From NCBI RefSeq assembly GCF_003287975.1, contig NZ_QMKQ01000029.1, positions 1 through 42,466 on the forward strand: a stretch of DNA of 42,466 bases, written 5' to 3'. The notes beneath the pieces were generated by a model, which had not been told where the DNA came from, searched no databases, and worked only from the letters and a program-made list of their open reading frames with translations. The DNA is from Arthrobacter sp. AQ5-05. GTDB lineage: Bacteria; Actinomycetota; Actinomycetes; Actinomycetales; Micrococcaceae. Made by a program: the position numbers and the translations under genes. Below, in pieces: positions 13,806 through 42,466 of this stretch (its first letter is position 1; each line of letters opens with the position of its first letter).

Positions 13806-13810
13806 CACCA

Positions 13811-13885
13811 CCTACTTCAACTACCCACACTATCTACTTCAACAATCAATGGTTAGAGTTGGTGTTGTGAGTAGTGTGAGTAGTG
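13811..13885. repeat. Upstream palindromic repeat of the AlbA-type cassette
   Basis: CCTACTTCAAC occurs at 13811-13821, and CTACTTCAACAAT at 13834-13846. The imperfect inverse arms TGTTGTGAGTAGTGTGAGTAG lie at about 13863-13883. The block resembles the palindrome at 15727-15775 beyond the gene and overlaps the proposed start codon at 13849. Confidence 0.75.
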
Positions 13886-15651
13886 ACAGTCAATCCACGT
13901 CCACCCGATACGGAGATCTTGCAGGGCTGGTCGCTCGCTTGCGCTCGATTGGCTCTGACTCCCGCTACGTCGAGGTGAAGGCCGCTGCCGGGGGATTTCC
14001 CAAGTCCGTCAGAGAAACCATTAGCGCTTTCAGCAACAGTGCCGGTGGCGGACTAATAATCCTGGGAATCGATGAACGTACCGGATTCACCCTGGCAGAG
14101 GGGTTTGACGCTGAATCCTCAGCAGAAGCTGCCATTGCCATGGTCCGCCCACGCAAACTTAAGGAAGAGTCTGGCGCGCTGACACCCGCCCCTGTCGCAG
14201 AGGTAGACATCGTTCCTTTCGAAGGCGGGCGATTGGTACTCATTGATATCAGCGAACTTCAACCTCATCAAAAGCCTTGCTTTGTCACCGACAAAGGTCT
14301 CCTCAACGGAAGTTACCAAAGGCTTCATGACGGCGACCATCGTCTGAATGAGTACGAAGTCTTTGCGCTGCAAAGCAATCAGCGGCAACCACAGGACGAC
14401 ATCCAGCCCGTAACGGATGCTTCATGGGAAGATCTCGACGCCGGAGCCATACAGGAGTTCCTTAACAGACTGCGTACCGGACGGGCCCCCATATTCGCAA
14501 AACTAAGCGACGAAGAAGCCCTTATCCGCAATGGAATCCTCGCGGCCGACGGTACGACCCCGACCCTCGGCGGGTTACTTAGCTTTGGAATTTACCCACA
14601 ACAGTACTTTCCACAATTGATGATTAGCGTTGCGGAGTTTCCCGGCACGGACAAGGGAACAGTGCTCGCAGGTGTGAAACTCCTGAATCGTCAAACCCTT
14701 GACGGAAGCATCCCTCTGATGCTGGAGGGCGCCGTGACCGAAGTCATCAAATCCCTAAAGACTCGTCGAGTGGTCCGCGCTTCAACCGTCGACGAAGTCC
14801 CCGAAATTCCTGTGACAGTAATACGCGAGGCGATAGCCAATGCCCTAATGCACCGCGACTATTCTGCATACACACAGGGTGAGCAGATCCGTATCGAACT
14901 ATTCGCCGACCGTCTCGTCATTGAAAATCCTGGCGGAATCTACGGCGGGAGAAATCGGGAAGACCTCTGGAAAGGGAGCTCATTGTCCCGAAACGGAACG
15001 TTGGCACGCCTCTTGCCGCTCGTGAGGATGCCGGGTAGCGAAACGACAGTCTCGGAAAATCTCGGCACCGGGCTACAGACCATGCTGCACGGCATGCGTG
15101 AAATGGGGCTGGATGCCCCGATCATACGGTCAACCTTGCAGCAGTTCAGCATCACGCTTCCCAGATACGGCCTAATGACGGAAAGCGTCCGTGAATGGAT
15201 TCACCAGATCGGGGCAGACGGTTTGCCTATCGATCACCAACGAATACTTGCGCTGCGTGATTCCAACGAGCCCCTATCCGTAAGCAACATCCGCCAGCGA
15301 CTTGCCATAGATGGGGAAGACGTACGTGACATCCTTGAGTCGCTCGTTGCCGAGGGCTGGCTCAGTTATCCACAACGCCGCAACGAGCCGTATCCGGAAG
15401 GCCCCCGGCTACTTGAAATCCCTGGCATATCCACCCATGCTCGGCCAGGAACCGAAACAAGAGCGAACGCTGAAGCTCGAATCAGAGCGTGCTTTGAAGC
15501 ACACGATGAGCTCAACACGCAGTCATTGGCAACCATGACAAATCTTCATCAAAACACTGTTCGGCGTCATATCCGCCAGCTCACCGAGAGCGGGTGGCTA
15601 ATCGGCATTGGCTCTCCGACAAGCCCACGAAGGACATACAGAAAAAAGTAG
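13849..15651 (+). CDS. AlbA_2 / HATPase_c_4 ATP-binding accessory protein with winged-helix C-terminus
   Basis: From the ATG at 13849 the product is 600 residues. An AlbA_2 (schlafen-like) domain includes YVEVKAAAGGFPKSVRETIS and NSAGGGLIILGIDE (about 40-75). An ATPase domain of the HATPase_c_4 type has VIREAIANALMHRDYS (about 324-339), IENPGG (358-363) and ENLGTGLQTML (403-413). The C-terminus carries two winged-helix-like segments, ending TNLHQNTVRRHIRQLTESGW. Proteins of this kind are common accessory genes, variously called transcriptional regulators or DNA-binding ATPases, and some lie in defence or mobile loci. Base and codon use are visibly less GC-rich than in the flanking ald and pur genes, which suggests transfer. 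Because a palindrome overlaps the first codons, the real start could be a later GTG (13867). Confidence 0.75.
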   Translation: MVRVGVVSSVSSDSQSTSTRYGDLAGLVARLRSIGSDSRYVEVKAAAGGFPKSVRETISAFSNSAGGGLIILGIDERTGFTLAEGFDAESSAEAAIAMVRPRKLKEESGALTPAPVAEVDIVPFEGGRLVLIDISELQPHQKPCFVTDKGLLNGSYQRLHDGDHRLNEYEVFALQSNQRQPQDDIQPVTDASWEDLDAGAIQEFLNRLRTGRAPIFAKLSDEEALIRNGILAADGTTPTLGGLLSFGIYPQQYFPQLMISVAEFPGTDKGTVLAGVKLLNRQTLDGSIPLMLEGAVTEVIKSLKTRRVVRASTVDEVPEIPVTVIREAIANALMHRDYSAYTQGEQIRIELFADRLVIENPGGIYGGRNREDLWKGSSLSRNGTLARLLPLVRMPGSETTVSENLGTGLQTMLHGMREMGLDAPIIRSTLQQFSITLPRYGLMTESVREWIHQIGADGLPIDHQRILALRDSNEPLSVSNIRQRLAIDGEDVRDILESLVAEGWLSYPQRRNEPYPEGPRLLEIPGISTHARPGTETRANAEARIRACFEAHDELNTQSLATMTNLHQNTVRRHIRQLTESGWLIGIGSPTSPRRTYRKK

Positions 15652-15677
15652 GTTCGGAAGGGATTCTTCCTCGAACC
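15652..15677 (+). terminator. Hairpin after the AlbA-type gene
   Basis: GGTTCGGAAG and CTTCCTCGAACC (15651-15660 and 15666-15677) form a stem with a two-base bulge right at the stop codon. No T-run follows, so termination would be weak. Confidence 0.4.
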
Positions 15678-15726
15678 CATCGCTGCGGAGCTTGGGACAG
15701 AGACCCGAACCCCGCAACTACTGCAA

Positions 15727-15775
15727 CTACTCTCAACACCTACTTCAACAATGGTTGAGTAGATGTTGAGAGTAG
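15727..15775. repeat. Downstream 49-base palindrome of the AlbA-type cassette
   Basis: Outer arms CTACTCTCAACA (15727-15738) and TGTTGAGAGTAG (15764-15775) match perfectly. Inner arms CTACTTCAAC and GTTGAGTAG match with one extra T. The core CTACTTCAACAAT and the following GTAGTGTGAGT (15772-15782) are shared with the block upstream of the gene. It has no T-tract and looks like an operator or recombination site rather than a terminator. Confidence 0.8.
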
Positions 15776-15821
15776 TGTGAGTCAGTGGTGTGAGCAAGCC
15801 TCGCAGCTACATGCCAGTGCC

Positions 15822-16223
15822 TTAATCGTCGCCGTCGAGGTAGTACCAGTGCCCGCCCTCGCGCACGAAGTCACTGACCTCATGCTGGGAGTTGGACTGG
15901 TTCAGCAGTCGGTAGTGCGCCTCGAACTCGACAACACCGCGATCGTCGAAGGGGCCGCCTGCCTCGGTGCGGATGATGTCCAGGTCCTGCCAGACAATGG
16001 CCTCGTCGAGCTCAAGCTCGGCCGGGCGGGTGTCGGGGTGCCAGGTGGCCAGCAGGAATTCCGGCAGGCCCAGTGCAAAGGCGCTAAAACGTGAACGCAT
16101 CAACGCAACGGCGGTTCCGGGCCACTGCGGGGACCCAGGGTCGCTGAATCCGTGGTGATATCGGCCACAGCAGGATCCGTAGGATTCCCCCGAATTGCAG
16201 GGGCAGCGCGAGTCTTTTTCCAT
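15822..16223 (-). CDS. YchJ-family (UPF0225) SEC-C motif protein
   Basis: The 133-residue protein starts with a metal-binding SEC-C-like motif, CPCNSGESYGSCCGRYH. The YchJ core follows with ALMRSRFSAFALGLPEFLLATWHPDTRP and ends with FVREGGHWYYLDGD. Length and motif order match the UPF0225 family, whose function is not established; the SEC-C motif binds zinc in other proteins. It is transcribed away from the purine operon, sharing the 201-base gap 16224-16424, and has only a weak ribosome site. Confidence 0.88.
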   Translation of the reverse strand: MEKDSRCPCNSGESYGSCCGRYHHGFSDPGSPQWPGTAVALMRSRFSAFALGLPEFLLATWHPDTRPAELELDEAIVWQDLDIIRTEAGGPFDDRGVVEFEAHYRLLNQSNSQHEVSDFVREGGHWYYLDGDD

Positions 16224-25323: not shown

Positions 25324-26949
25324 TCACCTGGCCTCGCGGTCCCACAACCCGTTCTCCAGGGCGAAGAGCGTGGCGGAGACGCGGTTGGCCGCACCGGTCT
25401 TGAGGTAGATGTGCTCGATGTGGTTCCGGACGGTTTTCGGGGAGATGACCAGGGCCGCGGCAATCTTCTGGTGGTCCATCCCCCGGCACAGCAGCCGCAG
25501 CACCTCGATCTCGCGGGCCGTCAGCCCGCCGGGTCCGGCCCCGGGCAACCGTCCCCCGGCGCCCGCGGCCGCGACGAGCACCGCCTCGACCGATCGGGCC
25601 TCAAGCCTGCCGGAGTCGGCCTCGGCGCGCAGGCGCAAGCCCGCCGCCCGGGCATCCAGCGCCGCCCGGTGCGGGCGCGGCTCCAGGTACGTTTGGTAGG
25701 CATCGACGGCCGCAATCAGGCGTTGGCTCGGATCCAGCTCGGAGGCGGTGCGCCCCAGCGGGTAGCCCGAACCGTCCAGCCGCTCGCGGTGCGCCCCCGC
25801 CACCTGCCCCACGCGCCGCATGCCCGGCACCCGGGCGAGGACCCTTTCGCTGAGCAGCGGGTACATGTCCAGGTGTTCGCGCTGGATCCCCGAGAGCTCC
25901 CCCGGGGCATCCCACAAGGCGTTGGACACCCCCATCCTCCCCAGGTCGTGCACCCATCCGGCTTGGCGCAGCACCCGGGTTTCGTCGGCGCCCAGCCCAT
26001 AGCTGGCCGCCGCGCCGGCGGCCAGGGCCGCCACGGCCCTCGAATGCCCGATGGTCCACGGGGATTTCAGGTCGGCAAAATCGCCCATGGCCTCCAGCAC
26101 CGAGTCCAGTTCCGCCCCGGCCAGGGCTGCGTCCCGGGGCGCGGAATCCAGCACCCGCGGCCAGGGGTCGGCCTCCAGCAACCCGTGGGCCAGCTCAGCG
26201 GCCCGGGCGCAGAACAGGTCGGCGAGCGCCGGGTCGAATTGGGTGCCGCGGCGGGCCCTTGCCATGGCCACGGCCCCGTCCAGGCCCGCGGTGCGCAGGT
26301 GGACCTCGACGGTGTCGGCCAGTTGCGCGATCCGCATTTCCAGCGGGATCTGCACCCCGGATCTCCCTGCCGGCAGTCCCCGGCCGTCCCAGCGCTCAAA
26401 GGTGTGCGCAAGGATCACCGGCAGGCTTTCGTCCAGGCCCACGCGTGCGGCCAGCCGGCCGGCGGAGGTGCAATGCGAAGAGATCAGGTCCCGCACGGAC
26501 GAGCGTGCGGTGGCGATGAACCGGGCACGCGCCACGGCCCGTTGCCCGCCCGGCAGATCCGCGGCCGTGTGGCGCACCATCATCGAGAGCATGGGCAACC
26601 CGGTGGCATCGATGAGGTAGTAGTCAAAGCGAAACCCGATGTCGTCGCCGAAGAGCGCGGCCAGCTCGAATGAATCGGCGTGGCAGCCGATCCAGGCCAA
26701 AAGGTTCGCGTAGTAGATCCGCTCGCGCACCTCCTGGTCGACGTCCAGGGCCTCCGCGATCCGCAGCCCCAGCAGGGTCGCGCGCATCATGTGTTCCATG
26801 GGCTGGCCGAGCCCCAGGTCGATGGCCAGCGAGAGCGCGGCCAGCAGTTCGCTGCGGCGCGGGGCGGGCCCGGGAACCGGCGGCAGCGCAGCGGATTGCG
26901 CTCCGGGCCCAGCGGGCCCCGAAAACGCGTCCGATCCCTGTCTGGCCAC
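25324..26949 (-). CDS. Tandem HD-GYP-like domains with C-terminal LuxR DNA-binding domain
   Basis: The 541-residue protein starts at GTG. Residues 33-235 form a first HD-GYP-like half with degenerate motifs (CHADSFELA; HTFERWDGRGLPAG). Residues 280-425 form a second with H302, H334-D335 (WVHDLGRMG) and HRERLDGSGYPLG, close to the consensus of active cyclic-di-GMP phosphodiesterases. A LuxR/NarL-type helix-turn-helix occupies 474-537 (LTAREIEVLRLLCRGMDHQK). A regulator controlled by binding or hydrolysis of a signal nucleotide is the natural inference; the signal is not known. The start lacks a clear ribosome site. The conserved unknown gene upstream ends 39 bases before, so both are probably co-transcribed. 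Confidence 0.8.
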   Translation of the reverse strand: MARQGSDAFSGPAGPGAQSAALPPVPGPAPRRSELLAALSLAIDLGLGQPMEHMMRATLLGLRIAEALDVDQEVRERIYYANLLAWIGCHADSFELAALFGDDIGFRFDYYLIDATGLPMLSMMVRHTAADLPGGQRAVARARFIATARSSVRDLISSHCTSAGRLAARVGLDESLPVILAHTFERWDGRGLPAGRSGVQIPLEMRIAQLADTVEVHLRTAGLDGAVAMARARRGTQFDPALADLFCARAAELAHGLLEADPWPRVLDSAPRDAALAGAELDSVLEAMGDFADLKSPWTIGHSRAVAALAAGAAASYGLGADETRVLRQAGWVHDLGRMGVSNALWDAPGELSGIQREHLDMYPLLSERVLARVPGMRRVGQVAGAHRERLDGSGYPLGRTASELDPSQRLIAAVDAYQTYLEPRPHRAALDARAAGLRLRAEADSGRLEARSVEAVLVAAAGAGGRLPGAGPGGLTAREIEVLRLLCRGMDHQKIAAALVISPKTVRNHIEHIYLKTGAANRVSATLFALENGLWDREAR

Positions 26950-28592: not shown

Positions 28593-30017
28593 CTACAGCG
28601 CTTGCACTCCGGGTTGATGGCCGCCGGCCAGCTCGCGGGCGGCGGCGACGTACCTCCGGGTGGCCAGGCGCTGGGCGGCTTCCGCCACCGGGGAGGCCAT
28701 CGCGAAGAACCGGTTGGAGTGCCTCGAGGCGGCCTTGATTTCCAGGTACACCGATCCGTCGCTTTCCAGCACCGCGGCAAATGACTCCTCCCCCGTTTCG
28801 GGGTGCCCGGCCAGCGTCCCGTAGGCAAAACCCGACCGCGTGGTTTCGTCGATCAGGCGCACCACACGGCAAGGCGCATTGATGCGTGCCGGGCCGACGC
28901 CGAAGCCCAGCTCGACGCGGCTGCCGAGCTTCACACGCGGGGTGTCGGGCCGCGTGCGCAGGCCCGAACGCCGATGCAGCGACCAGGTGAGAATGCCTTC
29001 GGCCAGCGCGTCGAAGGCGGCCCGGCCGGAGCCCACCCGTTCGCGCAGGTGCAGGTGGCTGTAACCCCCGGGCATCGGGTCAAGCCCGGTCATCCCGGCT
29101 TCCGGGTAGCTTAGGTCGGACAGCACCCCGAGGCGGAAGAGCCTGCGCCGGGCGGCCAGCTCGGCCGGACCGCGCTTGGCCAGGGCCAGGCCGGCGACCC
29201 CCAGCACCGCCTTCCCGCCGAGGCGGGCCGGCAGCGGCAGCGGGCCCAGCGCGGGCCGCTGCAGGCCCAGCAGCCTGCGGTGGTTTTCCGGCAGCGTGTC
29301 CACCACGGCGGCAAAGAGCAGCTTGTAGCCGGGCAGCACCGCCGGATCCAGTGGCGGGTTCTTCAGGAAGGAGACGACCTGCTCCACCCTGGGGCCTCCG
29401 GCCAGTTCGCCGCGGGCCTCGTACCCGGCGATGGCCGACCTCAGTTCGGCGTCGCTGCGCGGCGGGTTGGCCACGCCCATGAGTTCGCCGGCCATGGCCC
29501 ATTCGCGCACGTAGGCGTCGGCGCCTTGGGGGACGGGGCCGGAGAAGATTTCGTGGCTGCGCAAGAACGCGTCGGCGAAGGCGATGTGCACCCATTCGGC
29601 GAGCCCGGGGTCGTTGGCCGCGTAGTCGCGTTCCTCCCCGGTGCCGGAGACATAGCGCCCGGTGACCGGTTCGTGGCGGCGGGCCACCCGGGCGCAGGCG
29701 GCGTTCGCGGCCGTCGTGTCGCCGTAGGTCAGGGTGAAGATCCAGCGGATGGTCCCGGCCAGCCGGGACAGCGGGTCCGTGCGGTAGTCCGAATGCTCGG
29801 CGACACCGGCCAGCGCGCCGGGATGCAGCGCCTGGGTCAGCAGCGCCCGGATGCCCGCGGCGATCGGGCTCATGCCCCCGTGCACCACCCAGACCGCGGA
29901 GTCGTGCGGGAAGTATCCCGCATCGTCTCCGCGGTCCAGCTCGCGTTCCCACACCGGATCGTAGTGTTCCTGGGCGGAGAACGTCTGCTGCAGCTTGTGC
30001 CGCAATGGCTCGAACAT
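28593..30017 (-). CDS. Fusion of an MpaB-family oxygenase (DUF2236) and a DUF1990 domain
   Basis: The 474-residue protein joins two families. Residues 30-280 match the oxygenase MpaB/rubber-oxygenase-like family (DUF2236): HGGMSPIAAGIRALLTQALH, RLAGTIRWIFTLTYGD, ARRHEPVTGRY (R114, H115), HIAFADAFLRSHEIF. Residues 302-465 match DUF1990: LSYPEAGMTG, PGGYSHLHLRERVGSGRAAF, SGFAYGTLAGHPETGEESF and SRHSNRFFAMASP. DUF2236 members bind b-type haem; DUF1990 has no established role and is usually a free protein of about 170 residues. The start ATG lies nine bases after the stop of the YgiN-like gene, so translation is probably coupled. Confidence 0.8.
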   Translation of the reverse strand: MFEPLRHKLQQTFSAQEHYDPVWERELDRGDDAGYFPHDSAVWVVHGGMSPIAAGIRALLTQALHPGALAGVAEHSDYRTDPLSRLAGTIRWIFTLTYGDTTAANAACARVARRHEPVTGRYVSGTGEERDYAANDPGLAEWVHIAFADAFLRSHEIFSGPVPQGADAYVREWAMAGELMGVANPPRSDAELRSAIAGYEARGELAGGPRVEQVVSFLKNPPLDPAVLPGYKLLFAAVVDTLPENHRRLLGLQRPALGPLPLPARLGGKAVLGVAGLALAKRGPAELAARRRLFRLGVLSDLSYPEAGMTGLDPMPGGYSHLHLRERVGSGRAAFDALAEGILTWSLHRRSGLRTRPDTPRVKLGSRVELGFGVGPARINAPCRVVRLIDETTRSGFAYGTLAGHPETGEESFAAVLESDGSVYLEIKAASRHSNRFFAMASPVAEAAQRLATRRYVAAARELAGGHQPGVQAL

Positions 30018-30910: not shown

Positions 30911-33900
30911 TTAGTTCCCCTCGCCCTTGCGGCGGCGGGAGCTTGCCACGAACGCTGCCCCGAGGAGCAGGATCAGTGCGCCGGAGCCCAGGATCCACAG
31001 CGTGGAGTCATCCGCGCCCGTGGTCGCCAGCGGCGGTGCCGGCTTGCGCGGCGAAACCACGGCGACAGGTGCCGGATTCACCGGCGGACCCACGACCACC
31101 GGTGCCGGATTCAGCGGCGGGACCACGATGACCGGCGGTGCCGGCAGCACGATCTCCTCGTCCGGCGTGGGGTGCACGGTCTTCGACGGCGGGACATCCC
31201 CATTGCCGGTGGCCACGTTCACCAGGACCTCGTCCCAGGCCTCGTCATCGACCGTGATGGAGTAGGTAAGGGTCTTCTCCTCGCCGACCGCCAGGTCGCC
31301 CACGGTCCACACCAGCTTGCTGCCGTCGATGGCCGACTCGCCGCCGTGCAGCCGCAGGCTTCCCTCGTCGAGGGTTGCCGCGTGCTGCCAACCGGCCATC
31401 TCGTCGGTGACCACCGCCCCGGTGTACACGAACTCGCCGGTGTTGCGCACCGTGAGGGTGTAGGTGACGGTGTCGCCCGGCCAGACGATGGTGCCGCTGG
31501 CCGGATCCGAGGTCTTCACCAACGAGTAGCTGCGCGGGTTCTTCACCGGGGTCGCGCAATCGCGGGACGCGGTGGTTTTGCCGTTGGCGCTCAGGATGGC
31601 CTCGTTCAGGAAGCCGCCGTTGGTGTTGGTGTCCTCGGGCTGGCAGGTGCCGGCCTCTGATCCGATGACCCCGTCCGCCAGGACCGCGACGACGTGCACC
31701 ACGTAGGTGTGGGAGTCGCGTGCCTCGAGGTTGCGGTCGGCGGCGAGCACCGTGCCCGTCTGCGTGCCGGGGTTCTCCCAGCTGCCGGTTTCAGCGGTGC
31801 CTTCCAGGGTCCAGTTGGCGCCGGTGGCGGTGAGCCCCGCGCCGAAGCGCAGCGTGTCGGTGAGGTCGTAGCGGGTTGCCACGTCCGAGGTGTTGTTCAC
31901 CACGACCGTGTAACGCGCATCCCAGCTGCCATCCGCGTTCTCCTCGGCCGAGACGGCCGTCTTGACGACGTTGCTGCTCGGTACCGGGATTTCCAGGCAG
32001 GCCGTGTCCTGGTCGGACTCGTTTCCTGCGGTGAGAACGCCGGTGTTCAGCAATCCGTGGCCGTCGGAGCCGCAGACCCGATCCGCATCGTTGATCGCCG
32101 AAGTCAGGGACACGTTGACGATGACCGTGAAGGTGTGGACAGCTCCCGGGTCCAGGACCTGGTTGGCCGCCACGAGCTCGTCGGTGGAGTCCTTGCCGTG
32201 CCAGGCCTCGTTGACAACGACGTCGGTGGAGCTGACGTGGCGGTCGTTGACGGTGACGCCGTCGGCGAAGGCCGGGGTGTCGGTGAGCGTGTAGTTCGCG
32301 CTCGCACCCTCGGTTCCCGGGTTGGTGACGATCAGCTTGTAGCTCGCGTCCCAGGTGCCGTCCCAGTTTCCGTCCGCGTTCTCATGCTGGACCAATTCAA
32401 GGGCCTGCTTGTCGAGGCTCGGGGCAACGGGTGCCGCGCAGGCGCGGGCCTCGCGGTCCTGGCCGTTGGAGGTGATTCCCGCCGTGTTCAGGAACCCGGT
32501 GCCGTCTTCCCCCTCGGTCAGTTCGCAGTCGGCTGCAGCACTGCCGGTGGTTCCGGCGGCCACGGTGGCGGTGACGCTGATGCTGTACTCGTGGGTGTCG
32601 CCCGCGGCCAGGAACTTGTTGGTGGCCAGCGTGGTGGCGGGATCGGTGTCGGGTGCGCTCCAGGCGCCGTCGGCACCGTCCGGTCCGCTCCAGGTGGCCG
32701 AATCGATGGTGGCACCTGCGCCGAAGGCCAGGGTGTCATCCAGCGAGTAGATGCCCGGCGAGGCCACGTCCCCTCTCACCGTGACCTTGTAGTCCACGGC
32801 CCAGCTGCCGTCGGGCTGCTGGCTGGCCGAGGTGACGGTCTTGGCGATGTCCGGGTTTCCGGTGGCCGGGATCTTCACGCAGTCCTCGTCCGAATCGGTC
32901 TGGTTGCCGCTGGTGAGCCTTGCGGTGTTGAAGAAGCCGCTGCCGGCGCCCTCGCATTCCCGCTTGCTTTCCAGGTCCAGCCCGGCCAGGTCCACGGTGA
33001 AGGTCACCCGGTAGGCGTGCTTCGTGCCCGCCGCGATCGGGGTGTCATCCGCGATGGCCACCGGGACGGTGGTGCCGTCCAGCGTGGTTGCCGGGGTGTC
33101 CTCGCCGACCGAGACGACGTTCCAGCCCTCGATCTGCGTTCCTGCGGCGAATGCCGGGGAATCGAGAAGATCGTAGTGGGAGTCGTGTCCGGTGGTGTTG
33201 TCCACGTCCAGCGTGTAGGAAACCTTCCACGTTCCGGTCGCCTCATCCAGCACCGGGTCCCCGGTGGCGGTCTTGGCGATTTCCGGTGTGGTCGGCTCCG
33301 CGCAGGCCGTGGCCTCGGTGCCCTGTCCGTTGGCGGTGATGGTGGCCGAGTTCAGGAACCCGGTGCCGTCCTCGCCTTCGACCAGTTCGCAGTTGCCGGC
33401 CTCGGTGCCCACGACCCCGGCCGCGACGGTGGCGGCGACCGTGACCTCGTAGGCCTCGGTGGTTCCGGCGTCGATCAGCTTGTCGGCGGCCAGGACCTCG
33501 GTGTAATCCGGGGTCGCCAGGTCCCAGTCGCCCGAGTCGCCGGCCGTCGGGCCGGTCCACGAGGCGTCGGTGACGGTGATGCCGTCGCCGAAGGACAGGG
33601 TGTCTTCCAGCGAGTAGCGTCCCTGGACGTCGTCGTTGTTGGTGACCTCCAGCTTGTAGGTGATGCTCCAGCTGCCATCGGCGTTCTGCCGGGTGCCGGT
33701 GACGGTCTTTTCAACCGTCGGGGCTCCGACCCTCACGCAGACCTCGACCGAGGTGCTGGCATCATCGGTCGCCACGGAGGTGGCGGTGTTGGTGTGGGTG
33801 GTGCAGGTGCCGTCCGGGGCATCCGGGTCCGGGTTCGTGAAGACCACCTGGTAGGTGAATTCCGTGGAAACGCCGTCGGGGTTCCAGTCCGCGGTGCCCA

Positions 33901-36900
33901 GGGACACCGGGGCCGCAACGGTTCCGGCCTTGTCGTCAAGGACCTCAAGGTCCTTGTTGGTGGAGCCGGCCTCGGCGTAGTTCACCTCGGCCGTCCCCGT
34001 GGCGGACACAGCGTCGCCCTTGGCGTTTTCCCAGCTGGCGGTGGCGGTGTTCGCACCGGTGTAGTCCATGTCCCGCGGGGTGCCGGTGCACGTGTAGTCA
34101 AGGACCACGGTGCCCGGTTCCCCGTCGGTACCGGCGGGAACCAGGACCTGCAGGCCTTCGGTTGATTCGTCGGCGTCCTTGGCGTCGACCTTGCAGGCGA
34201 CACCCTGGATGTCGATGTTCTCGGAGACGGTGGCCGTGATGGCACCTTCGGCGAACCGGTTCGGGTTGGACAAGGTGATCTTGCCGCTTACCGCGTGGTT
34301 CGAATCCTCGAATCCGGACGGGGTCGCGGCCACCGTGTAGTCGAACGTTGCCGTCCCGTCCAGGCCGATCTCGGCCTTGGTGGCCGAGACCTTCTTGTCC
34401 AGGTCCCACAGGTACTCGCGGTCGAAGGATGCCTCGGCGCTCTTGCTGACCGACAGGCCCTCCTTGGCGCAGACCGTGACGTCCGTCGAGTCGGTGTTGT
34501 CGCCGGCGGCGCTCGTCGGCATGACCTCGGCGGGGCCGTTCTCGGTGCTTTCCTCGAGCACCGCGTTGTTGGTGTAGATGGTGCACTGTCCGGCCACGCC
34601 GGCGAGCTCGACCGGGTAGGTGAACGTCCTGGCGTCCTCGTTGTCTCCAACGCTGACGGTGCCCAGGTCGTGGGTGGCACCGGGTACCGTCTTGTCGTCG
34701 AGAACGTTGACCGTCTCGTCGATGCTGCCGGTCTGCGTGAACAACACGTCGGCGTCGAAGGAAGCGGTGCGGTCCTCACCGTCAACGCCACTCCAGCTGA
34801 CCGTGGCGGTGTTGGTGTGGCCCGAGTAGTCGGCCTCGAGCAGCTTGGCGTCGATCATGCAGTCGTAGCTGACCGTGGTCTTGCCGCTGACAACTTCGCC
34901 GTCAACGACGGTGGCCGCGGGGACCACCACGTCCGTGCCGCCACCGGCGACGGTGCACGTTGCGCCCGGAACCGAGGTGGCATCGCTGATGTCGACGCTC
35001 AACTCGCCCTGCTGGTTCGGGTTGAACACGTCGATCGATCCGGACATCGTCCAGTCCTGGTCGGCATGCCCGTCCAGGCTGGCGGTGACCGTGTAGTTCG
35101 CGGTCGCCTTGCCGTTGCCGTCGACCGTGAACTTGCCCTTCTCGACCTGCTTGTCGATGCTCCAGTCGTAGTCGCGGGTGAATCCGGCCTTGACGGTCTT
35201 GACGACCGTCATGCCCGTCTCCACGCAGACCTCGACGGATACCGAATCGGTGTTGTCCTCGTTGCTGCCGGCCTTTTCCTTGAGCACCGCGGTGTTGGTG
35301 AACGTGGTGCACTTGCCCGCCGTGCCCACCAATTCCTGCGCGTATGTGAAGACGTTCTCGCCGCCCAGGGTCGCGGTGCCCAGTTTCACGGGCTCCGCTT
35401 CCGGGTTGGTCTTGTCGTCATAGACGTCGACCGAGGCGTCGGTGGCCTGATCGAGCGTGAAGTCCACGTCAACCGGATCGCTGGATGCGGTGCGGCCATC
35501 GCCCCAGGCGGCGGTCGCGGTGTTCTTGAGGAAGCCGGTGTACTTGGCTTCGTCCACGCCGGCGGCAACGTTGCAGGTGTAGTCGAGCGTTGCCGTCGCT
35601 CCGGCAGCGATCTGCACGTCCGCACCGTCGGCGACCGTGCAGGTGATGCCCGCGATATTCAAGGCATCGGTGACGTCGGCGGTGATCGAGCCGAAGTCGT
35701 TCGGGTTGTGCACGGTGGTCTTTCCACCGAGCGTCCAGCCCGAATCCGTGTGTGCATCCTGCGTTGCGGCCACGGTGTAGTTGGCAACAACCTTGCCCTC
35801 GCCATCGACCTTGAAGTCGGTCTCGTCGACCTGCTTCTCGATCTTCCAGTCGTAGTCGCGGTCGTAGGTCGCCGTGGCGTCCTTGGAGACATCCAGGTCC
35901 GCCTCGACACAGACCGTGACGGTCTGCTCGTCGGTTGCCAGGATGTTCGTTTCGCCGGCTGCCGCCATCGCCCGCGGCTCCCCGGCCACGCCGGCCAGGG
36001 TCGCGGTGTTGGTGTAGTCGGTGCAGGTGCCCAGCACGCCTGGGAACGACAGGTCGTAGGCGTCAAACGCCGTGGGTCCGTCATTCCAGTGTGCGGTGCC
36101 CAGCAGGACCGGTTCCCCAACGGTTCCGGCCTTGTCGTCAAAGACCTGCACGGTCTCGTCCGTCACGTTGGCAGCCTCGTACGCGAAGCCTGCCGTGGCC
36201 TTGGCGGACTTCGGATCGCCTGCGGCATCCGTCCACGTCACGTCTGCGGTGTTGGTGCCGTTGTAGGCGGCGGGTGTGCCGCCGCAGTGGTAGGCCAGTT
36301 CCCCGATGCCTGGGTTGCCGTCGGTGCCCGCGGGCACCAGCACCTGGAATCCGTCCTGGTCCGGATCAAGATCCGTCGGGTTGGTGATGTCGCACGTCAA
36401 TCCGGCGATGCCCGCGGTGTCCTTGACGGTTGCGGTGATTGCACCGCCGGCGAACTGGTTGGGGTTGGTCAGCGTGATCTTGCCGTCCAGAGTGAACCCG
36501 GTGTCGACCTTTTCCTTGGGCTCTGCCGAAACGGTGTAGGTGAACGTCGCCGATCCGTCCGGGGCAATCGTCTGCTTCGTCGAATCCACGGACTTCTTCA
36601 CGTCCCAGGTGTACAGGCGGTCAAATGAGGCCGCGGCGTCCTTCTCCACCTGCAATCCGGCCTTGGCGCAGACTTCCACCTCCTGGCTGGCCTTGTTGTT
36701 TGCATCCTTGCCGTCGGTTGCTGTTTCCTCGTTCAGCACCGCGGTGTTGGTGTAGGTGGTGCACTGCCCGGCAGTGCCTTGGAGTTCAACCGGGTACGGG
36801 GCGAACGTCTTCGGGGCCTCGGACACGCTCGCGGTGCCCAGGTCATGCTCGGCGCCGGGAACGGTCTTGTCATCGACAACCGTGACGGTCTCGTCGATGC

Positions 36901-39900
36901 TGCCGGTCTGCGTGAAGACGATCGGCGCACTGTTGGTCACGGTGCGGTCCATCCCGTCAACACCCTTCCAGCTGACGATGGTGTGGTTCTTCTTGCCCGT
37001 GTAGTCGCCTGCCGAAACCCCGCCGGCAAAGGTGCAGTTGTACTGCACCGTGGCGGTCCCGTTGCTGACCTCGCCGTCCGCCTCGGTGGCGGCGGGAACA
37101 TTCACGCCGGTGCCGTTGGCCACCGTACATACGGCGCCCGGGATCTCCGGGGTGTCGGTGACGTCGACGGTGATGGCTTCCTGCTGGTTCGGATTGAACA
37201 CGGTGATCACACCGGACATGGCCCAGTCCTGGTCCTTGTGCCCGTCCAGGAGCGCCTTGACCGTGTAGTCTGCGGTGGCCTTGCCGTTCCCGTCAACGGT
37301 GAACTTGCCCTGGTCGACCTGCTTGTCGATGCTCCAGTCGTAGTCGCGGGTGAAGCCCGCATCGACGGTCTTGACCACGGTCAGGCCGTCCTCAACGCAG
37401 ACCTCGATGTCGGCCGATGATTCGTTGCCTTCGGGGTTGTCGTCGTCGCCCTCGAGCACGGCGGTGTTGGTGAAGGTGGTGCACTTGCCGGCAACGCCCT
37501 GCCATTGAACGTCGTATGCAAAGGTCTGCGGCGACTGGTCGCGCGTCACCGTGCCCAGCACGCCGTCATTCCCGGCGTAGTGGTCGTCGGCCACCCTGAT
37601 CTCGGTGTCCGTTTCGGTGGCCAGTGCGAAGTCCACGTCGACCGGGCCGCTGGAGGCGCTGCGGTTGCCTCCCCAGGTGGCCGTCGCGGTGTTGGTGATC
37701 TTGCCTGTGTAGTCGGCTTCGGCCACGCCGGCTGAAACCTCACAGGTGTAGTCGAGTGTTGCCGTCTTGCCGGCAGCGACCACCACGTCCTGGCCCTCAG
37801 CGACGGAGCAGGTGATGCCCTCAACGTTCAAGGCATCGGTGACATCCGCGGTGATCGAACCGAAATCGTTCGGGTTGGCCACCGTGATGGTGCCCGCGAG
37901 CTTCCACTTCGAATCCGTGTAGCCGTCCTGGGTGGCGGCCACCTTGTAGCCGGCGGTGACCTTGCCGTTCCCGTCGACCTTGAAGGAGGTCTCGTCGGCC
38001 TTCTTCTCGACCTTCCAGTCGTAGTCGCGGTCGTAGGTGGCCGTGGCGTCCTTGGAGACAACCAGGTCCTGTTCGGCACAGACCGTGACGGGCTCGCTGT
38101 CCGACGCCAGGGTTGCCTGGTTCCAGCCCTTCTCGGTCACGATCGCGGTGTTCGTGTAGTCGGAGCAGGTTCCCGGGGTTCCGCCGAACTTCAGGTCATA
38201 GGGGAAGGCAGTGGGGGTCTTCTCCTTGTTCCAGGTGGCTTCGCCCAGCAGCTCGGGGTACTCGGTCTCGTAGACCTTGTCGTCAAAGACCAGGACGGTC
38301 TTGTCGTACTCGGTGTCGAGGGCATACTCGACCTTGGCCGTGGCCCGGGTCGACTTCTTGTCGCCGGTGACATCCGTCCACGACACATCCACAGTGTTTG
38401 TTCCGGTGTAGCTGGCAGGGACGCCATCGCAGGTGTAGTCCAGGACGACTATGCCGTTGTTTTCCCCGGCGTTGGCGGGCACCAGGACCTGCAGTCCCTC
38501 GGTGTTCAGGTCGTAGTCGGTGGCCTGGATTTCACAGGTCACGCCGCCGATGCCCACCGTGTCCGTGAGCGTTGCGGTGATCGCGCCGCCAGCGAAATTG
38601 TTCGGGTTGGTCAGGGTGATCGTGCCGCCCAGGGTTTCGCCAAAGTCATCAAAGCCGTTCGGGACTGCCGTGACGGTGTAGTTGAAGGTTGCCTTTCCGT
38701 CCGGGGCGATCGTCTGTTGCGTCTTGTCGACGTCCTTGGTCACGTTCCACTTGTAGAGGCGGTCGAAGGATGCCTTGGCGGTTTTGGAAACCTGCAGTCC
38801 TGCCTGGCCACACACGGTGGCAGTGGCTTCGTCGGAGGGGTTCTCCGAGCCGTCGCCTTCAAGCTCGATCCAGGCCTTGTTGGTGAAGGTGCCGCAGGTG
38901 CCGGGATCCACAACGTGCTCCAGCTCGTACGGGAACGCCTTGGATCGAGTGGCTTTGTCCTTGACCTCGCTCCACGAGACGGTGCCGACCTCGGTGCCGT
39001 CGCCCCCGGGTGCCGCCTGGTCGTCAAATACCTTGACGGTTTCGTCGGTGATCGTTCGCGGCTTGAATTCGATGGGCTTGGCCGGGCCGGTGGCTTCGCC
39101 GCCGGCCCAGGCAATCTTTGCGGTATTGGTTCCGCCGGTGTAGTCGGATTCGGCTACATTGCTGGGATCACAGGCGTAGTTCACGGTCGCGGTTCCGGGA
39201 ATCCAGTTCCCGTCGACCAGGGTGGCCTGCGGTACGTTGATCTGGATGCCGGCAGCGTTCAGGTTCACGTCGTGGGTGGCATCCACGGTGCAGACCAAGC
39301 CCGCCAGCGACGTACTATCCGAGACCGTGGTCTCGACATCGCCGCCGAACTGGTTTGCGTTGGCCACCGTGATGGTGCCGCCCATCGACTTGGTGTCCGT
39401 GTAGCCCTCGCCGGTGACGGTGATGCCGTATCCGACCGTTGCCTTTCCGTCGGAGTCCGCGTTGACGGTCCCCTCGGTCTTGGCCTTCTTGTCGATGTCC
39501 CACGTGTAGGTGCGGTCGTAGCTTGCGTCGACGGTCTTTGACACGCTCAAGCCGGCCGGGAGGCAGGCCAGGATGGTCGCGTCCTCGGATGCGAGGGCCT
39601 CGGTGGCGGAAACCTTCGCGGTGTTCGTGAACGGTACGCATTGTCCGGCGTCTGCCGCCGGGACCGTCCAGGTCACCTCGTAGTCCTTGGACTGTGGCGT
39701 CGTGCCATCTGCCCCGTCAATGGTCCATGCGGGGTCAAAGGTGAACTCGTCGTCGGTCACGGTCACGTTTTGGTTCAATGGGCTCTGCGTCCACGAACCG
39801 GCGGTGACCTCGGCGGTGCCCTCGTCGACCTCGCCGGGGGTTGAGGCCTCGGCCTTGCTCCAGTCAACTCTGGCGGTGTTGGTTCCCGTGTACCTGGGCT

Positions 39901-42334
39901 GCGAACCGAAATCACAGCCGTAGTCGAACTCGACGGAGCTGTTCTTCGGGATGACCGTCTGGAATCCGGCCTTGGTCGGGTCCAGGTCGGTCCCGGTGCC
40001 CGGGCTGGTCTGGCCGGTCACGGCACAGACGGCGTCGCCGCCCACGTCCACCGAGTCGGTCAGGGTCGCGGAGACGTCCTGCCACTTGTTCGGGTTCGTC
40101 ACCGTCATGGTCCCGGTCATGGCCCAGTTGCTGTCCACGTACGGCTGCGGCGTCACCGTCACCCGGTAGTCGATGGTGACCTCGCCGTTCGCATTGGTGT
40201 TGTACTTCGTGTTGTCCGCGACCGGCTGGCCGTTCAGCAGCGGGGTCTTGTCGATCTTCCAGGAGTAGGCGCGGTTGAAGCTTCCCTGGACGTTCTTGGT
40301 GACTTCCAGGTTGGCACCGATGCACACCTGGACCGACGCCGAATCGCTTCCGGTTCCGCCGTCGGATTCCTTGTAGGTGGCAATGTTCCCGTATGGCGTG
40401 CATTCGCCGGAGACCCCTGGCCACTTGATGGAGTAGTCAAACGTCTTCGATGCTTGCTCCGCGGTGACCTCGTTGCCGCCCGGAAGCATGCCCAGGTCAA
40501 ATTTGTTGTCCGTGACGGTGACCTTGTCATCGGTGACGGTGGGTTCCACACCTGTGAAGGTGAAGTCCTTGCTGGCGCTGGCTTCGCCGTCGGTGCCGTA
40601 GTAGGACGCCGCGTCCCAGGTGGCCTTGACGGTGTTGGTTCCTGCCGTTGCCTCCGTGGTTCCGGCCGGCATCTCACAGGTGTAGTTGAAGTTCGTCGTT
40701 CCGCGCGGAATCGAGATCGGGCCGGTAACGGCCGTGCCGCCGGTTGTTTCGATGGCGCACTGGGCACCGGGGAGGCTGTCACTCAGCGTCACGCCGTTGA
40801 TGGCGGCGGCATTGCTGTTCTCGACGCTGATGACACCGTCGACGACAAAGTTGCTGTCCTTGGGAGCGCTGGCCTTGACCATCACGCTGTAGTCGACACT
40901 GACGTTTGTCGTCGGCGACTTCACGCTGGCGGCCTGGCCGGCGGCAAGATTCTTGTCGATGGTCCAGTCGTAGTCGCGGTCAAACCTGGGCTTGGCCGTC
41001 GTGGAGACCGCAAGATCCTGGTATGTGGTTTTGGTGTTGGTGAACGTACAAACGACTTCCACACGGTTCAGCAAGGTAAAGGACACAAGCCGCTTCGTTT
41101 TGTCGACCGTCGGTATGACACCCGTACAGGTCAGGTCTGCGAGGTTCCAGCCGGCAGGAAGGACACCTTCCGAAATCGTGACCTCGCCCGGTGCAACGTT
41201 GTATTCAATCTGGTTCGGAAGGTTCTCACCGGTGTCGGATTCTGAACTGTCATCCAGATCGAAGTTGGCTGAAGACTCTGCTTCCTCCGAAGACAAGTTG
41301 AAATTGAAATCCGTCCCGTCAGCGGGAATGGCCTTCTTGACAACTGTCACAAAACCGACCTGCATGCCCGCCGTTTTTATCGACAGGGCCGAGGCACCCT
41401 GACCGACGCAGTTCAGTGAAACCTTGGATACGTGGTACGAGGAACCTGAAATCGATGAGGCTCCGGTGGACGGCCCATGGTCAAGTTCGGAAGCGATATG
41501 TGCACTGAAGTAAAGGATTCCGCTCCTCTCGGTGGCATCGAATGTCACGTACACGGTATCTTCGCGGGCAGAGCCGGAGCCTTCCACAACCCTGGTCCTG
41601 ATGTTGTTTCCGCCATCCATGGAGAAGCGGCTAGCGTAGTCAAAACCCCATCTTTCGCCGTCCCTGACTTGGTACCTAAAAACGAATTCGTTCTCTCCAA
41701 GGCTCAAACCACTCATCATGACCCTGTACTGGACGAATCCGCCTTCAAACAGCCCCTGGGCAAGGTTGCCAGTCATCCAATCGGTCACTTCCGACTTTTG
41801 TTCCATCTTGCCAAGATTTCCCGTGCCCCCATTGGGACCACAGGTACCAATAGCCGACGGAGTGACCGGTTCTTCCGCAGGGAGTGCGGCCTTGGGGTCA
41901 GCGGTTTTCGCCGAGGGGTCGCTGGTCTTCGTTTCTGTCTTATTGGGGGCTTCGGTGGTAGGGGCAGCCGACTTCTTCGTCTGGACGGGCTTCTTCGTCA
42001 CTGGAGCTTCGGACTTGGGGGCCGCGGACTCCTGCGGTTCGGCGACCTTCTCGGCCGCGGGCGGTTCGGTGCCCTCGGAAGGTGCTTCAGCAGCTTTCTC
42101 TTCTGCGGCAGCGGCCGGGGATTCTTTCTTCGACGCGTCCGATTCGAGCGTCGTTTCGCCGTCCTTCGCCGCGTCGAGCAGCTGCTGCTCCACGGTGGTG
42201 TCCTGTTTGTCGGCTGGCGCGGCCACGGCGGGATTGAATCCACCGCCGCCAAACATCATCGTTGCGACGAGCGCCGTCGTTGCACTGGCGCCAACGGTTG
42301 AACGGACGACGCCGTTCCTCCAAATCGCAGCCAA
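30911..42334 (-). CDS. Giant (3,807-residue) LATTG-anchored cell-wall repeat protein, probable adhesin or stalk
   Basis: Order of parts: signal peptide (1-39, ending AVAA); Lys/Glu/Ala/Pro/Thr-rich spacer (40-160); N-terminal domain with C165 (165-315); prealbumin/SpaA-like domain (325-438); ten long repeats R1-R10 (440-2868); five short repeats S1-S5 (2869-3598); a DUF11-like domain (3599-3710); Pro-rich stalk (VVPPLNPAPVVVGPPVNPAP); sorting signal L3769-ATTG, a membrane helix and RRRKGEGN. LATTG fits the LAXTG motif of class E sortases of high-GC actinobacteria. R repeats share xLxVxK, DRxYxWxxxK, NPNxF, four cysteines and CxxxTNTA. Such proteins are covalently fixed to peptidoglycan; adhesion or a surface fibre is inference. 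The only available start is TTG 42334 with a weak ribosome site, because an insertion sequence ends six bases upstream; the true N-terminus may be lost. Two terminators follow. Confidence 0.88.
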   Translation of the reverse strand: MAAIWRNGVVRSTVGASATTALVATMMFGGGGFNPAVAAPADKQDTTVEQQLLDAAKDGETTLESDASKKESPAAAAEEKAAEAPSEGTEPPAAEKVAEPQESAAPKSEAPVTKKPVQTKKSAAPTTEAPNKTETKTSDPSAKTADPKAALPAEEPVTPSAIGTCGPNGGTGNLGKMEQKSEVTDWMTGNLAQGLFEGGFVQYRVMMSGLSLGENEFVFRYQVRDGERWGFDYASRFSMDGGNNIRTRVVEGSGSAREDTVYVTFDATERSGILYFSAHIASELDHGPSTGASSISGSSYHVSKVSLNCVGQGASALSIKTAGMQVGFVTVVKKAIPADGTDFNFNLSSEEAESSANFDLDDSSESDTGENLPNQIEYNVAPGEVTISEGVLPAGWNLADLTCTGVIPTVDKTKRLVSFTLLNRVEVVCTFTNTKTTYQDLAVSTTAKPRFDRDYDWTIDKNLAAGQAASVKSPTTNVSVDYSVMVKASAPKDSNFVVDGVISVENSNAAAINGVTLSDSLPGAQCAIETTGGTAVTGPISIPRGTTNFNYTCEMPAGTTEATAGTNTVKATWDAASYYGTDGEASASKDFTFTGVEPTVTDDKVTVTDNKFDLGMLPGGNEVTAEQASKTFDYSIKWPGVSGECTPYGNIATYKESDGGTGSDSASVQVCIGANLEVTKNVQGSFNRAYSWKIDKTPLLNGQPVADNTKYNTNANGEVTIDYRVTVTPQPYVDSNWAMTGTMTVTNPNKWQDVSATLTDSVDVGGDAVCAVTGQTSPGTGTDLDPTKAGFQTVIPKNSSVEFDYGCDFGSQPRYTGTNTARVDWSKAEASTPGEVDEGTAEVTAGSWTQSPLNQNVTVTDDEFTFDPAWTIDGADGTTPQSKDYEVTWTVPAADAGQCVPFTNTAKVSATEALASEDATILACLPAGLSVSKTVDASYDRTYTWDIDKKAKTEGTVNADSDGKATVGYGITVTGEGYTDTKSMGGTITVANANQFGGDVETTVSDSTSLAGLVCTVDATHDVNLNAAGIQINVPQATLVDGNWIPGTATVNYACDPSNVAESDYTGGTNTAKIAWAGGEATGPAKPIEFKPRTITDETVKVFDDQAAPGGDGTEVGTVSWSEVKDKATRSKAFPYELEHVVDPGTCGTFTNKAWIELEGDGSENPSDEATATVCGQAGLQVSKTAKASFDRLYKWNVTKDVDKTQQTIAPDGKATFNYTVTAVPNGFDDFGETLGGTITLTNPNNFAGGAITATLTDTVGIGGVTCEIQATDYDLNTEGLQVLVPANAGENNGIVVLDYTCDGVPASYTGTNTVDVSWTDVTGDKKSTRATAKVEYALDTEYDKTVLVFDDKVYETEYPELLGEATWNKEKTPTAFPYDLKFGGTPGTCSDYTNTAIVTEKGWNQATLASDSEPVTVCAEQDLVVSKDATATYDRDYDWKVEKKADETSFKVDGNGKVTAGYKVAATQDGYTDSKWKLAGTITVANPNDFGSITADVTDALNVEGITCSVAEGQDVVVAAGKTATLDYTCEVSAGVAEADYTGKITNTATATWGGNRSASSGPVDVDFALATETDTEIRVADDHYAGNDGVLGTVTRDQSPQTFAYDVQWQGVAGKCTTFTNTAVLEGDDDNPEGNESSADIEVCVEDGLTVVKTVDAGFTRDYDWSIDKQVDQGKFTVDGNGKATADYTVKALLDGHKDQDWAMSGVITVFNPNQQEAITVDVTDTPEIPGAVCTVANGTGVNVPAATEADGEVSNGTATVQYNCTFAGGVSAGDYTGKKNHTIVSWKGVDGMDRTVTNSAPIVFTQTGSIDETVTVVDDKTVPGAEHDLGTASVSEAPKTFAPYPVELQGTAGQCTTYTNTAVLNEETATDGKDANNKASQEVEVCAKAGLQVEKDAAASFDRLYTWDVKKSVDSTKQTIAPDGSATFTYTVSAEPKEKVDTGFTLDGKITLTNPNQFAGGAITATVKDTAGIAGLTCDITNPTDLDPDQDGFQVLVPAGTDGNPGIGELAYHCGGTPAAYNGTNTADVTWTDAAGDPKSAKATAGFAYEAANVTDETVQVFDDKAGTVGEPVLLGTAHWNDGPTAFDAYDLSFPGVLGTCTDYTNTATLAGVAGEPRAMAAAGETNILATDEQTVTVCVEADLDVSKDATATYDRDYDWKIEKQVDETDFKVDGEGKVVANYTVAATQDAHTDSGWTLGGKTTVHNPNDFGSITADVTDALNIAGITCTVADGADVQIAAGATATLDYTCNVAAGVDEAKYTGFLKNTATAAWGDGRTASSDPVDVDFTLDQATDASVDVYDDKTNPEAEPVKLGTATLGGENVFTYAQELVGTAGKCTTFTNTAVLKEKAGSNEDNTDSVSVEVCVETGMTVVKTVKAGFTRDYDWSIDKQVEKGKFTVDGNGKATANYTVTASLDGHADQDWTMSGSIDVFNPNQQGELSVDISDATSVPGATCTVAGGGTDVVVPAATVVDGEVVSGKTTVSYDCMIDAKLLEADYSGHTNTATVSWSGVDGEDRTASFDADVLFTQTGSIDETVNVLDDKTVPGATHDLGTVSVGDNEDARTFTYPVELAGVAGQCTIYTNNAVLEESTENGPAEVMPTSAAGDNTDSTDVTVCAKEGLSVSKSAEASFDREYLWDLDKKVSATKAEIGLDGTATFDYTVAATPSGFEDSNHAVSGKITLSNPNRFAEGAITATVSENIDIQGVACKVDAKDADESTEGLQVLVPAGTDGEPGTVVLDYTCTGTPRDMDYTGANTATASWENAKGDAVSATGTAEVNYAEAGSTNKDLEVLDDKAGTVAAPVSLGTADWNPDGVSTEFTYQVVFTNPDPDAPDGTCTTHTNTATSVATDDASTSVEVCVRVGAPTVEKTVTGTRQNADGSWSITYKLEVTNNDDVQGRYSLEDTLSFGDGITVTDASWTGPTAGDSGDWDLATPDYTEVLAADKLIDAGTTEAYEVTVAATVAAGVVGTEAGNCELVEGEDGTGFLNSATITANGQGTEATACAEPTTPEIAKTATGDPVLDEATGTWKVSYTLDVDNTTGHDSHYDLLDSPAFAAGTQIEGWNVVSVGEDTPATTLDGTTVPVAIADDTPIAAGTKHAYRVTFTVDLAGLDLESKRECEGAGSGFFNTARLTSGNQTDSDEDCVKIPATGNPDIAKTVTSASQQPDGSWAVDYKVTVRGDVASPGIYSLDDTLAFGAGATIDSATWSGPDGADGAWSAPDTDPATTLATNKFLAAGDTHEYSISVTATVAAGTTGSAAADCELTEGEDGTGFLNTAGITSNGQDREARACAAPVAPSLDKQALELVQHENADGNWDGTWDASYKLIVTNPGTEGASANYTLTDTPAFADGVTVNDRHVSSTDVVVNEAWHGKDSTDELVAANQVLDPGAVHTFTVIVNVSLTSAINDADRVCGSDGHGLLNTGVLTAGNESDQDTACLEIPVPSSNVVKTAVSAEENADGSWDARYTVVVNNTSDVATRYDLTDTLRFGAGLTATGANWTLEGTAETGSWENPGTQTGTVLAADRNLEARDSHTYVVHVVAVLADGVIGSEAGTCQPEDTNTNGGFLNEAILSANGKTTASRDCATPVKNPRSYSLVKTSDPASGTIVWPGDTVTYTLTVRNTGEFVYTGAVVTDEMAGWQHAATLDEGSLRLHGGESAIDGSKLVWTVGDLAVGEEKTLTYSITVDDEAWDEVLVNVATGNGDVPPSKTVHPTPDEEIVLPAPPVIVVPPLNPAPVVVGPPVNPAPVAVVSPRKPAPPLATTGADDSTLWILGSGALILLLGAAFVASSRRRKGEGN
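31541..33730 (-). repeat. Five short protein repeats S1-S5, alternating in two subtypes
   Basis: S1 (33730-33293), S2 (33292-32867), S3 (32866-32435), S4 (32434-31985) and S5 (31984-31541) are 142-150 residues each. Each has a DGSW-like start, xYxLxDTxxF, and two cysteines around a GFLN/NxxxLTxxG segment. S1, S3 and S5 resemble one another (ATVAAG, GxEAGxC, ANGQ). S2 and S4 resemble each other (GNxxDxDxxCxxIP). Confidence 0.85.
33731..41017 (-). repeat. Ten long protein repeats R1-R10 with A-B-C order
   Basis: Starts (first base on the reverse strand): R1 41017, R2 40315, R3 39556, R4 38803, R5 38071, R6 37390, R7 36661, R8 35902, R9 35218, R10 34462; R10 ends at 33731. Lengths are 234, 253, 251, 244, 227, 243, 253, 228, 252 and 244 residues. 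R4, R7 and R10 are alike (ASFDRxYxW), as are R5 and R8 (SKDATATYDRDYDWK) and R6 and R9 (AGFTRDYDWSIDKQV). By loop type and length R2 is A-like, R1 B-like and R3 C-like. Confidence 0.88.
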
Positions 42335-42339
42335 AAAAG

Positions 42340-42466
42340 GGCTCTACTGACTCTTCCGTGGGTCATCCCCGTCCCGGGAGTACCGGTTTCCGGCCTCCGA
42401 GGCTGAGCATCGCCAGGCCGATGAGGGCTTCGGGTGCTTTGAATCCGAAGGCCACCCGGGTGATGA
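42340..42466 (-). mobile_element. End of an ISL3-like insertion sequence, running off the window
   Basis: GGCTCTACTGACTCTTCCG at 42340 resembles the outer inverted repeat of ISL3-family elements, many of which begin GGCTCT or GGxTCT. The eight bases before it, CAAAAAAG (42332-42339), are A/T-rich and of the 8-bp size that ISL3 elements duplicate on insertion. The transposase C-terminus lies just inside. Confidence 0.65.
42363..42466 (-). CDS. C-terminus of an ISL3-family-like transposase (partial)
   Basis: The reverse frame reads ITRVAFGFKAPEALIGLAML followed by SLGGRKPVLPGRG and a stop at 42363-42365. I recognise this ending (VAFGF, PEALIxLAML, GGxxPxLPGR) from the C-termini of ISL3-type transposases of coryneform bacteria and Arthrobacter; the DDE residues lie outside the window. 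It is transcribed toward the giant surface-protein gene, with 28 bases between its stop and that gene's first codon, so the element could supply read-through transcription. Confidence 0.65.
   Translation of the reverse strand, partial: ITRVAFGFKAPEALIGLAMLSLGGRKPVLPGRG

Follow-up and report, generated by a model that had tools for sequence, protein, structure and literature searches.

The question raised by this locus is how a giant surface protein with regularly placed cysteines in all its repeats is held together, and whether disulfide bonds take the place of the isopeptide cross-links of other wall-anchored proteins. The protein is encoded in the window, the entire 42,466-base contig NZ_QMKQ01000029.1 (C29) of the soil actinobacterium Arthrobacter sp. 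AQ5-05, whose 4.65 Mb genome is assembled in 116 contigs. We consider it likely that the protein is a fibrillar-adhesin-like, sortase-anchored (LATTG) stalk of a Paeniglutamicibacter relative, carrying both disulfides and isopeptide bonds. Its parts lie on the minus strand as follows.

30911..42334, minus strand: giant surface protein, a single open reading frame (ORF) with a TTG start and 3807 amino acids (aa)
42221..42334, minus strand: signal-peptide remnant (aa 1-38) with basic residues, a hydrophobic core and an AVA/A-like cleavage site, judged by eye and from the N-termini of relatives
41360..41872, minus strand: N-terminal head (aa 155-325) with C165 and C309, without a Pfam match
41036..41350, minus strand: SpaA_4 prealbumin-like domain (aa 329-433) with C403 and C429 (PF24514, 37.3 bits, cut-off 27.3)
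33737..41047, minus strand: ten long repeats R1-R10 (aa 430-2866), four cysteines each
31556..33736, minus strand: five short repeats S1-S5 (aa 2867-3593), two cysteines each and an invariant Lys/Asp/Asn set
31166..31528, minus strand: DUF7927 domain (aa 3603-3723; PF25549, 65.7 bits, gathering cut-off 31)
31034..31135, minus strand: proline-rich 33-base tandem repeat, read in the sequence
30926..31030, minus strand: sorting signal (aa 3769-3803) with LATTG, a hydrophobic stretch and a basic tail (TIGR01167, 16.6 bits, cut-off 15.9)

By eye, a linker rich in Ala, Pro, Lys and Glu lies between the signal-peptide remnant and the head. The C-terminal DUF7927 region also passes the cut-offs of DUF11 and DUF7507, and the proline-rich segment would span the wall.

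The cysteine pattern of the repeats is real and statistically strong. The protein contains 54 cysteines, four in its N-terminal part (C165, C309, C403 and C429), 40 in the long repeats and 10 in the short ones. An earlier reading of the letters without database searches (the sequence-only reading) had spoken of about fifty placed cysteines, and the repeats hold exactly 50. R1-R10 measure 227-253 aa, share 26-64% pairwise identity and have exactly four cysteines each, which occupy the kept places claimed for them: four alignment columns, each with Cys in 10/10. Shuffling within repeats over 1000 trials never brought more than 4 Cys of 10 into a column. The short repeats S1-S5 (141-147 aa) likewise carry two cysteines in all five; the second occupies a single column (5/5), and the first is split over two columns four apart (3/5 and 2/5). 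Profile comparison of long against short repeats returned a probability of 7.5% and did not support common descent. Within the long series, identities of 58, 63 and 64% for R4/R7, R5/R8 and R6/R9 suggest that a triplet was duplicated (R4-R6, R7-R9).

Conservation across homologues was one of the checks that the sequence-only reading had set for its cysteines, and they are kept. Across 22 proteins of Actinomycetota and of one Chloroflexota, which together have 131 long repeats, C1 was found in 131, C2 in 131, C3 in 130 and C4 in 123; this count leaves out L037-L040 and L043, which come from the same genomes as L070, L072, L074, L073 and L078. The long-repeat cysteines are as constant as any residue in the repeat, and no repeat among the 131 has lost a single cysteine from a pair. 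A wider profile gave 149 distinct stretches, of which 133 have all four cysteines (CCCC); the 16 others were classified by eye, and three of them are pieces of other domains. Cysteines stand a few residues off the columns in G528, G447 and both G670 stretches. An Ornithinimicrobium repeat is without C3 and C4 only; a G601 repeat likewise shows no Cys at positions 3 and 4 and has cysteines near the first two positions. The joint loss of C3 and C4 in two repeats that keep C1 and C2, few as the independent cases are, fits a 1-2/3-4 pairing. For the alignments behind these comparisons, 8 short-pair rows that A3 had placed on long repeats and 9 redundant rows were dropped between A3 and A4, which left 56 of 73 rows. 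Once repeats more than 55% alike and early-ending matches had been removed, 57 repeats remained, of which A5 holds 56, all but one Nocardioides row.

Predicted structures point the same way. The folds predicted for the repeats are all-beta, and a confident model (predicted local distance difference test, pLDDT, 95.7) covers the long repeat. Its strand order fits pairing of cysteines 1-2 and 3-4, and each conserved pair appears to lie across a hairpin on neighbouring strands, closeness being judged from strand limits in the models. The sequence-only reading had pictured successive modules locked by disulfides. The locking itself is favoured by the conserved, even number of cysteines and by the strand order, but the pairs would lie inside a module and not between modules. 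The short repeats have a predicted fold that resembles the C-terminal adhesin domains of MSCRAMM and antigen I/II proteins (SdrD, SdrG, Bbp and BspA); the giant protein differs from these in that the whole chain found no sequence match in the PDB. We know of no cysteine pair like that of the short repeats in such Firmicutes domains. In its second part, past about residue 154, the long repeat was barely covered by the fold comparison. Foldseek matches for both models were set aside as generic immunoglobulin (Ig)-like chains, most with a root-mean-square deviation above 19.

Cysteines might instead bind metal or serve as free redox or coupling thiols. We regard this as very improbable, given that the strand limits put the paired cysteines across a hairpin, that no His occurs among the columns at least 80% conserved in 56 long repeats, and that VKOR and DsbA-like genes are present in the genome. 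The latter genes also speak for the need for oxidative folding outside the cell that the sequence-only reading had foreseen. In the strain's own genome, we found one VKOR match, three Thioredoxin_4 (DsbA-like) matches and two sortase (PF04203) matches, all above cut-off and on other contigs. In Actinomyces oris, oxidative folding is carried out by MdbA, which is recycled by VKOR, as PMC9974433 describes.

Alongside the cysteines, the repeats keep a second group of residues. All five short repeats share K10, D45 and N129 (5/5 each), and these residues occur in 42, 43 and 42 of 44 matched stretches; these repeats show both marks of CnaA-like domains, the Lys/Asp/Asn set and a predicted Ig fold of CnaA type. 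In the 56 selected long repeats, two candidate sets can be read, K24-D80-N128 and K8-D163-N203, each complete in 50/56, and in the window's own long repeats each set is complete in 9/10. The spacing of K24-D80-N128 (56/104) resembles that of DUF7617 (56/94), whose weak below-cut-off alignment covers the part with D80 and N128 and not K24. Because these sets are conserved in long and short repeats, both cross-links in one module are likelier than disulfides alone; as far as sequence conservation can tell, disulfides are more probably a supplement to isopeptides than a substitute for them. The sequence-only reading had put disulfides in the place of isopeptides. For disulfides to be the sole cross-link, the Lys, Asp and Asn residues would have to be structural, a view to which two observations lend themselves: the long repeats pass no Pfam family cut-off, and K24 is kept in 56/56, even in the 6/56 where its partner D80 or N128 is changed, a retention that also weighs against our own account. 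Set against this are the two sets complete in 50/56 each, the exceptions to K24-D80-N128, in 3/6 of which D80 and N128 changed together, and the short repeats, which retain their set almost throughout and are predicted to fold like known adhesin domains of CnaA type. We therefore judge disulfides as the only cross-link to be unlikely.

Whether this module had been described before was addressed by family and literature searches. For the long repeats (about 230 aa), nothing passed the cut-offs in Pfam, NCBIfam or PDB sequence searches, and the best sub-threshold rows were Haemocyan_bet_s (23.8 bits, cut-off 24) and a designed scaffold (E 0.023). DUF11 (PF01345, CLIPPER) reached at best 11.8 bits against 24.6 over nine long-repeat pieces and was absent among the families at E <= 0.01 for 56 long repeats; DUF7617 (PF24593) reached 18.2 bits against a gathering cut-off of 27.4, with 2/56 members at E <= 0.01. 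No publication on this long repeat was among those listed in searches of the open-licence literature. The long repeat looks new, a repeat without a named Pfam family that combines two constant cysteine pairs with two possible isopeptide sets.

As a whole, the architecture has a precedent: it is a variation on the Ig-like stalk with disulfides and isopeptides that is known in Actinomycetota. The sequence-only reading had taken the design for undescribed, but PMC12617251 reports disulfides, in predicted structures, beside isopeptides in 29.7% of CLIPPER/DUF11 domains; among isopeptide domains grouped by phylum, the share is 41.3% in Actinomycetota and 42.7% in Chloroflexota. The same source counts DUF11, DUF7507, DUF7927 and DUF7617 among CnaA-like isopeptide domains with a Lys/Asp/Asn set; their stalks, like that of the giant protein, consist of tandem Ig-like modules with that set, often with predicted disulfides. 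The likeness extends to the giant protein itself, which ends in a DUF7927 domain. The long repeat differs from CLIPPER-type domains in its length of about 230 aa, its two possible Lys/Asp/Asn sets, its two kept cysteine pairs and its place under all Pfam cut-offs. FimP of A. oris and SpaA of Corynebacterium diphtheriae are likewise modules of Actinobacteria that are handled by sortase, and both disulfides and isopeptides occur within one molecule, as PMC3485203 sets out for FimP in comparison with SpaA; they are short pilin subunits polymerized by sortase, whereas the length of the giant protein comes from repeats in one chain. The premise that Gram-positive wall proteins avoid cysteine also needed revision. 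According to PMC9974433, cysteine is largely excluded in Firmicutes, whereas about 60% of exported proteins in Actinobacteria (A. oris, C. diphtheriae) have even numbers of cysteines, and FimP (PMC3485203) is a case in point.

Anchoring to the wall, also proposed by the sequence-only reading, agrees with the LATTG sorting signal, which passes TIGR01167, and with the sortases of the genome. The NF041528 (LAETG) profile scored 24.6 bits on this signal, below its cut-off of 30. PMC5148588 names LAXTG as the class E signal in actinobacteria from soil and fresh water. According to PMC9210967, a fibrillar adhesin is a very long protein with an anchor, a binding region and a repetitive stalk whose repeat number varies; the long repetitive stalk and the surface anchor are both present in the giant protein. 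In the mechanism we propose, the signal peptide would lead to export, and extracytoplasmic DsbA-like oxidoreductases, recycled by VKOR, would join cysteines 1-2 and 3-4 within each long repeat and the two cysteines within each short repeat. CnaA-type Lys-Asn isopeptide bonds would probably form in the same modules, and a sortase would attach the LATTG signal to the wall. The product would be a covalently cross-linked rod, built from ten long beta modules and five short ones, that holds a changeable N-terminal head off the cell, where the head may bind a ligand in an adhesive role.

The head (aa 155-325) is common to five congeners and Glutamicibacter uratoxydans at 42-95% identity. Among 394 class genomes, three including its own matched the head, the other two over half its length. 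In Paeniglutamicibacter antarcticus (L074) and G002 (L075), a vWA domain takes its place (26.8 and 44.0 bits, cut-off 23.8). At L071 15427-16980, the head is 48% identical to that of the window, whereas R1 is 88% identical; this contrast suggests domain exchange between congeners.

Several findings weigh against a cross-linked adhesive stalk. The neighbourhood of the cysteines is read from strand limits in the models, and the first cysteine of the short repeats (model residues 611 and 756) falls outside strands in blocks with pLDDT of 62 and 55. Across 44 short-repeat stretches, no first-Cys column reached 70%, and the second column held 41 Cys and 3 gaps. Pairwise loss of cysteines 3 and 4 comes from the two repeats given above. 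Loss of 1 and 2 is known from remote partial f73 matches only, five of which are without both and the sixth of which ends before position 2; none covers positions 3 and 4. G073 lacks the cysteine of position 1; one cysteine stands close to position 2, and a further one in an earlier strand. Of the 20 loci from relatives, seven were found with a pattern that contains C3, and C3 is present in one repeat of each by construction. Thioredoxin_4 also matches 9/14 control genomes and is not specific, and Pfam found no adhesive domain in the head of the window's own protein. Lastly, an insertion sequence (IS), described below, may silence the stalk gene in this strain.

Relatives show how far the stalk varies. 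The same-genus genomes include Paeniglutamicibacter psychrophenolicus, P. antarcticus, P. quisquiliarum and Arthrobacter sp. C2 (Micrococcaceae, Actinomycetota). Because 8/15 genus-level genomes, its own included, carry the gene, with 10, 10, 10, 10, 7, 7, 4 and 2 repeats, we regard it as accessory and variable in length. In the two congeners with seven repeats, these correspond, one after the other, to R1-R4, R5 or R8, R9 and R10 of the window. Repeat number likewise differs between related genomes in the Periscope proteins described in PMC9210967; these are marked by highly identical repeats, whereas the long repeats here are 26-64% identical. An assembly artefact was rejected as the source of the ten repeats, which recur in the same order in orthologues of G003, G006 and G010; the assemblies of G003 and G006 consist of one and two contigs. 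The ten-repeat profile A1 matched 9/59 genomes of the relatives set and 7/394 of the class, with its own genome counted in both, and the broader profile A5 matched 13/396 phylum genomes including its own, several of them in part only. A named genome collection yielded 12 loci, including Microbacterium, Nocardioides, Ornithinimicrobium, Glutamicibacter and Kouleothrix aurantiaca (Chloroflexota). This spread is a lower bound, because no more than 7 candidates per genome were scored in the scans of class and phylum and the named-collection scan used a single peptide pattern containing C3. Two repeats searched against 72,556 plasmid records gave no match. In Microbacterium sp. Leaf288 (L048 1-7893), a neighbouring ORF has 11 short-repeat matches, one of them weak, and no long-repeat match in the available part; it is possibly a short-repeat-only stalk.

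At its 5' end, the gene of the window meets the IS.

42339..42466, to the contig end, minus strand: right end of the IS (end of a reading frame and terminal inverted repeat), found at six places at 100% identity
42333..42338, minus strand: six T adjoining the IS, with the same six T beside the IS in C42

All six copies of the right end sit at contig ends, and we conclude from this that the IS fragments the assembly. Its tail resembles an ISL3-type transposase; the 33-aa reading-frame piece has no Pfam match. The upstream flank of the stalk gene was located on contig C42, where it ends in the opposite (left) end of the IS (L083 1-134). Its identity to the flanks of three congeners (L070-L072) is 93-95%, and to those of a further four 69-88%. 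The reading frame of seven congeners runs on upstream past the insertion point, and the TTG is for this reason probably not the native start. The IS was probably inserted in the signal-peptide coding sequence, and in this strain it parts the ORF from its upstream region. Whether the gene is a silenced copy here, separated from its native start and promoter, is in our estimate an even call. The IS right end directly upstream of the ORF, the flank and left end in C42 with the same six T on both sides, and the seven congeners in frame through the insertion point all favour silencing. Against it, 3807 codons are still open, the TTG and the signal-peptide core remain, and some IS ends carry outward promoters. 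Silencing would concern expression in this strain, not the identity of the protein, and can be compatible with the stalk explanation; relatives have copies of the gene without the interruption.

Downstream of the stalk gene lies an MPAB/rubber-oxygenase-like and DUF1990 gene (28593-30017), which is near the stalk gene in 7/9 loci compared. An HD-domain/LuxR regulator (25324-26949), also downstream, is near it in 3/9. Elsewhere in the window, a protein with Schlafen/AlbA_2 and RecG C-terminal-like domains (13729-15651) sits beside purine-synthesis genes; the GC content is lower around it (55% at 14001-16000), and the gene was possibly acquired. A single ORF at 7702-10689 combines an APH-type kinase domain with a class III aminotransferase domain.

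Herein, our findings add a stalk repeat that has no Pfam family and occurs in Actinomycetota and in one Chloroflexota, and correct a generalization: cysteine avoidance in Gram-positive surface proteins holds for Firmicutes, not for Actinobacteria. More tentatively, the long repeat may define an unnamed stalk family of Actinomycetota and Chloroflexota, whose module of about 230 aa would be cross-linked covalently at four places, by two disulfides and by two Lys-Asn isopeptides. If so, the chain would hold up to 27 disulfides and up to 23 isopeptides (9 + 9 + 5, from complete repeat sets only), and would offer a natural system to measure how both kinds of cross-link share mechanical load. If both form in each module, the share of each in the stability of the stalk would be testable in a single recombinant domain.
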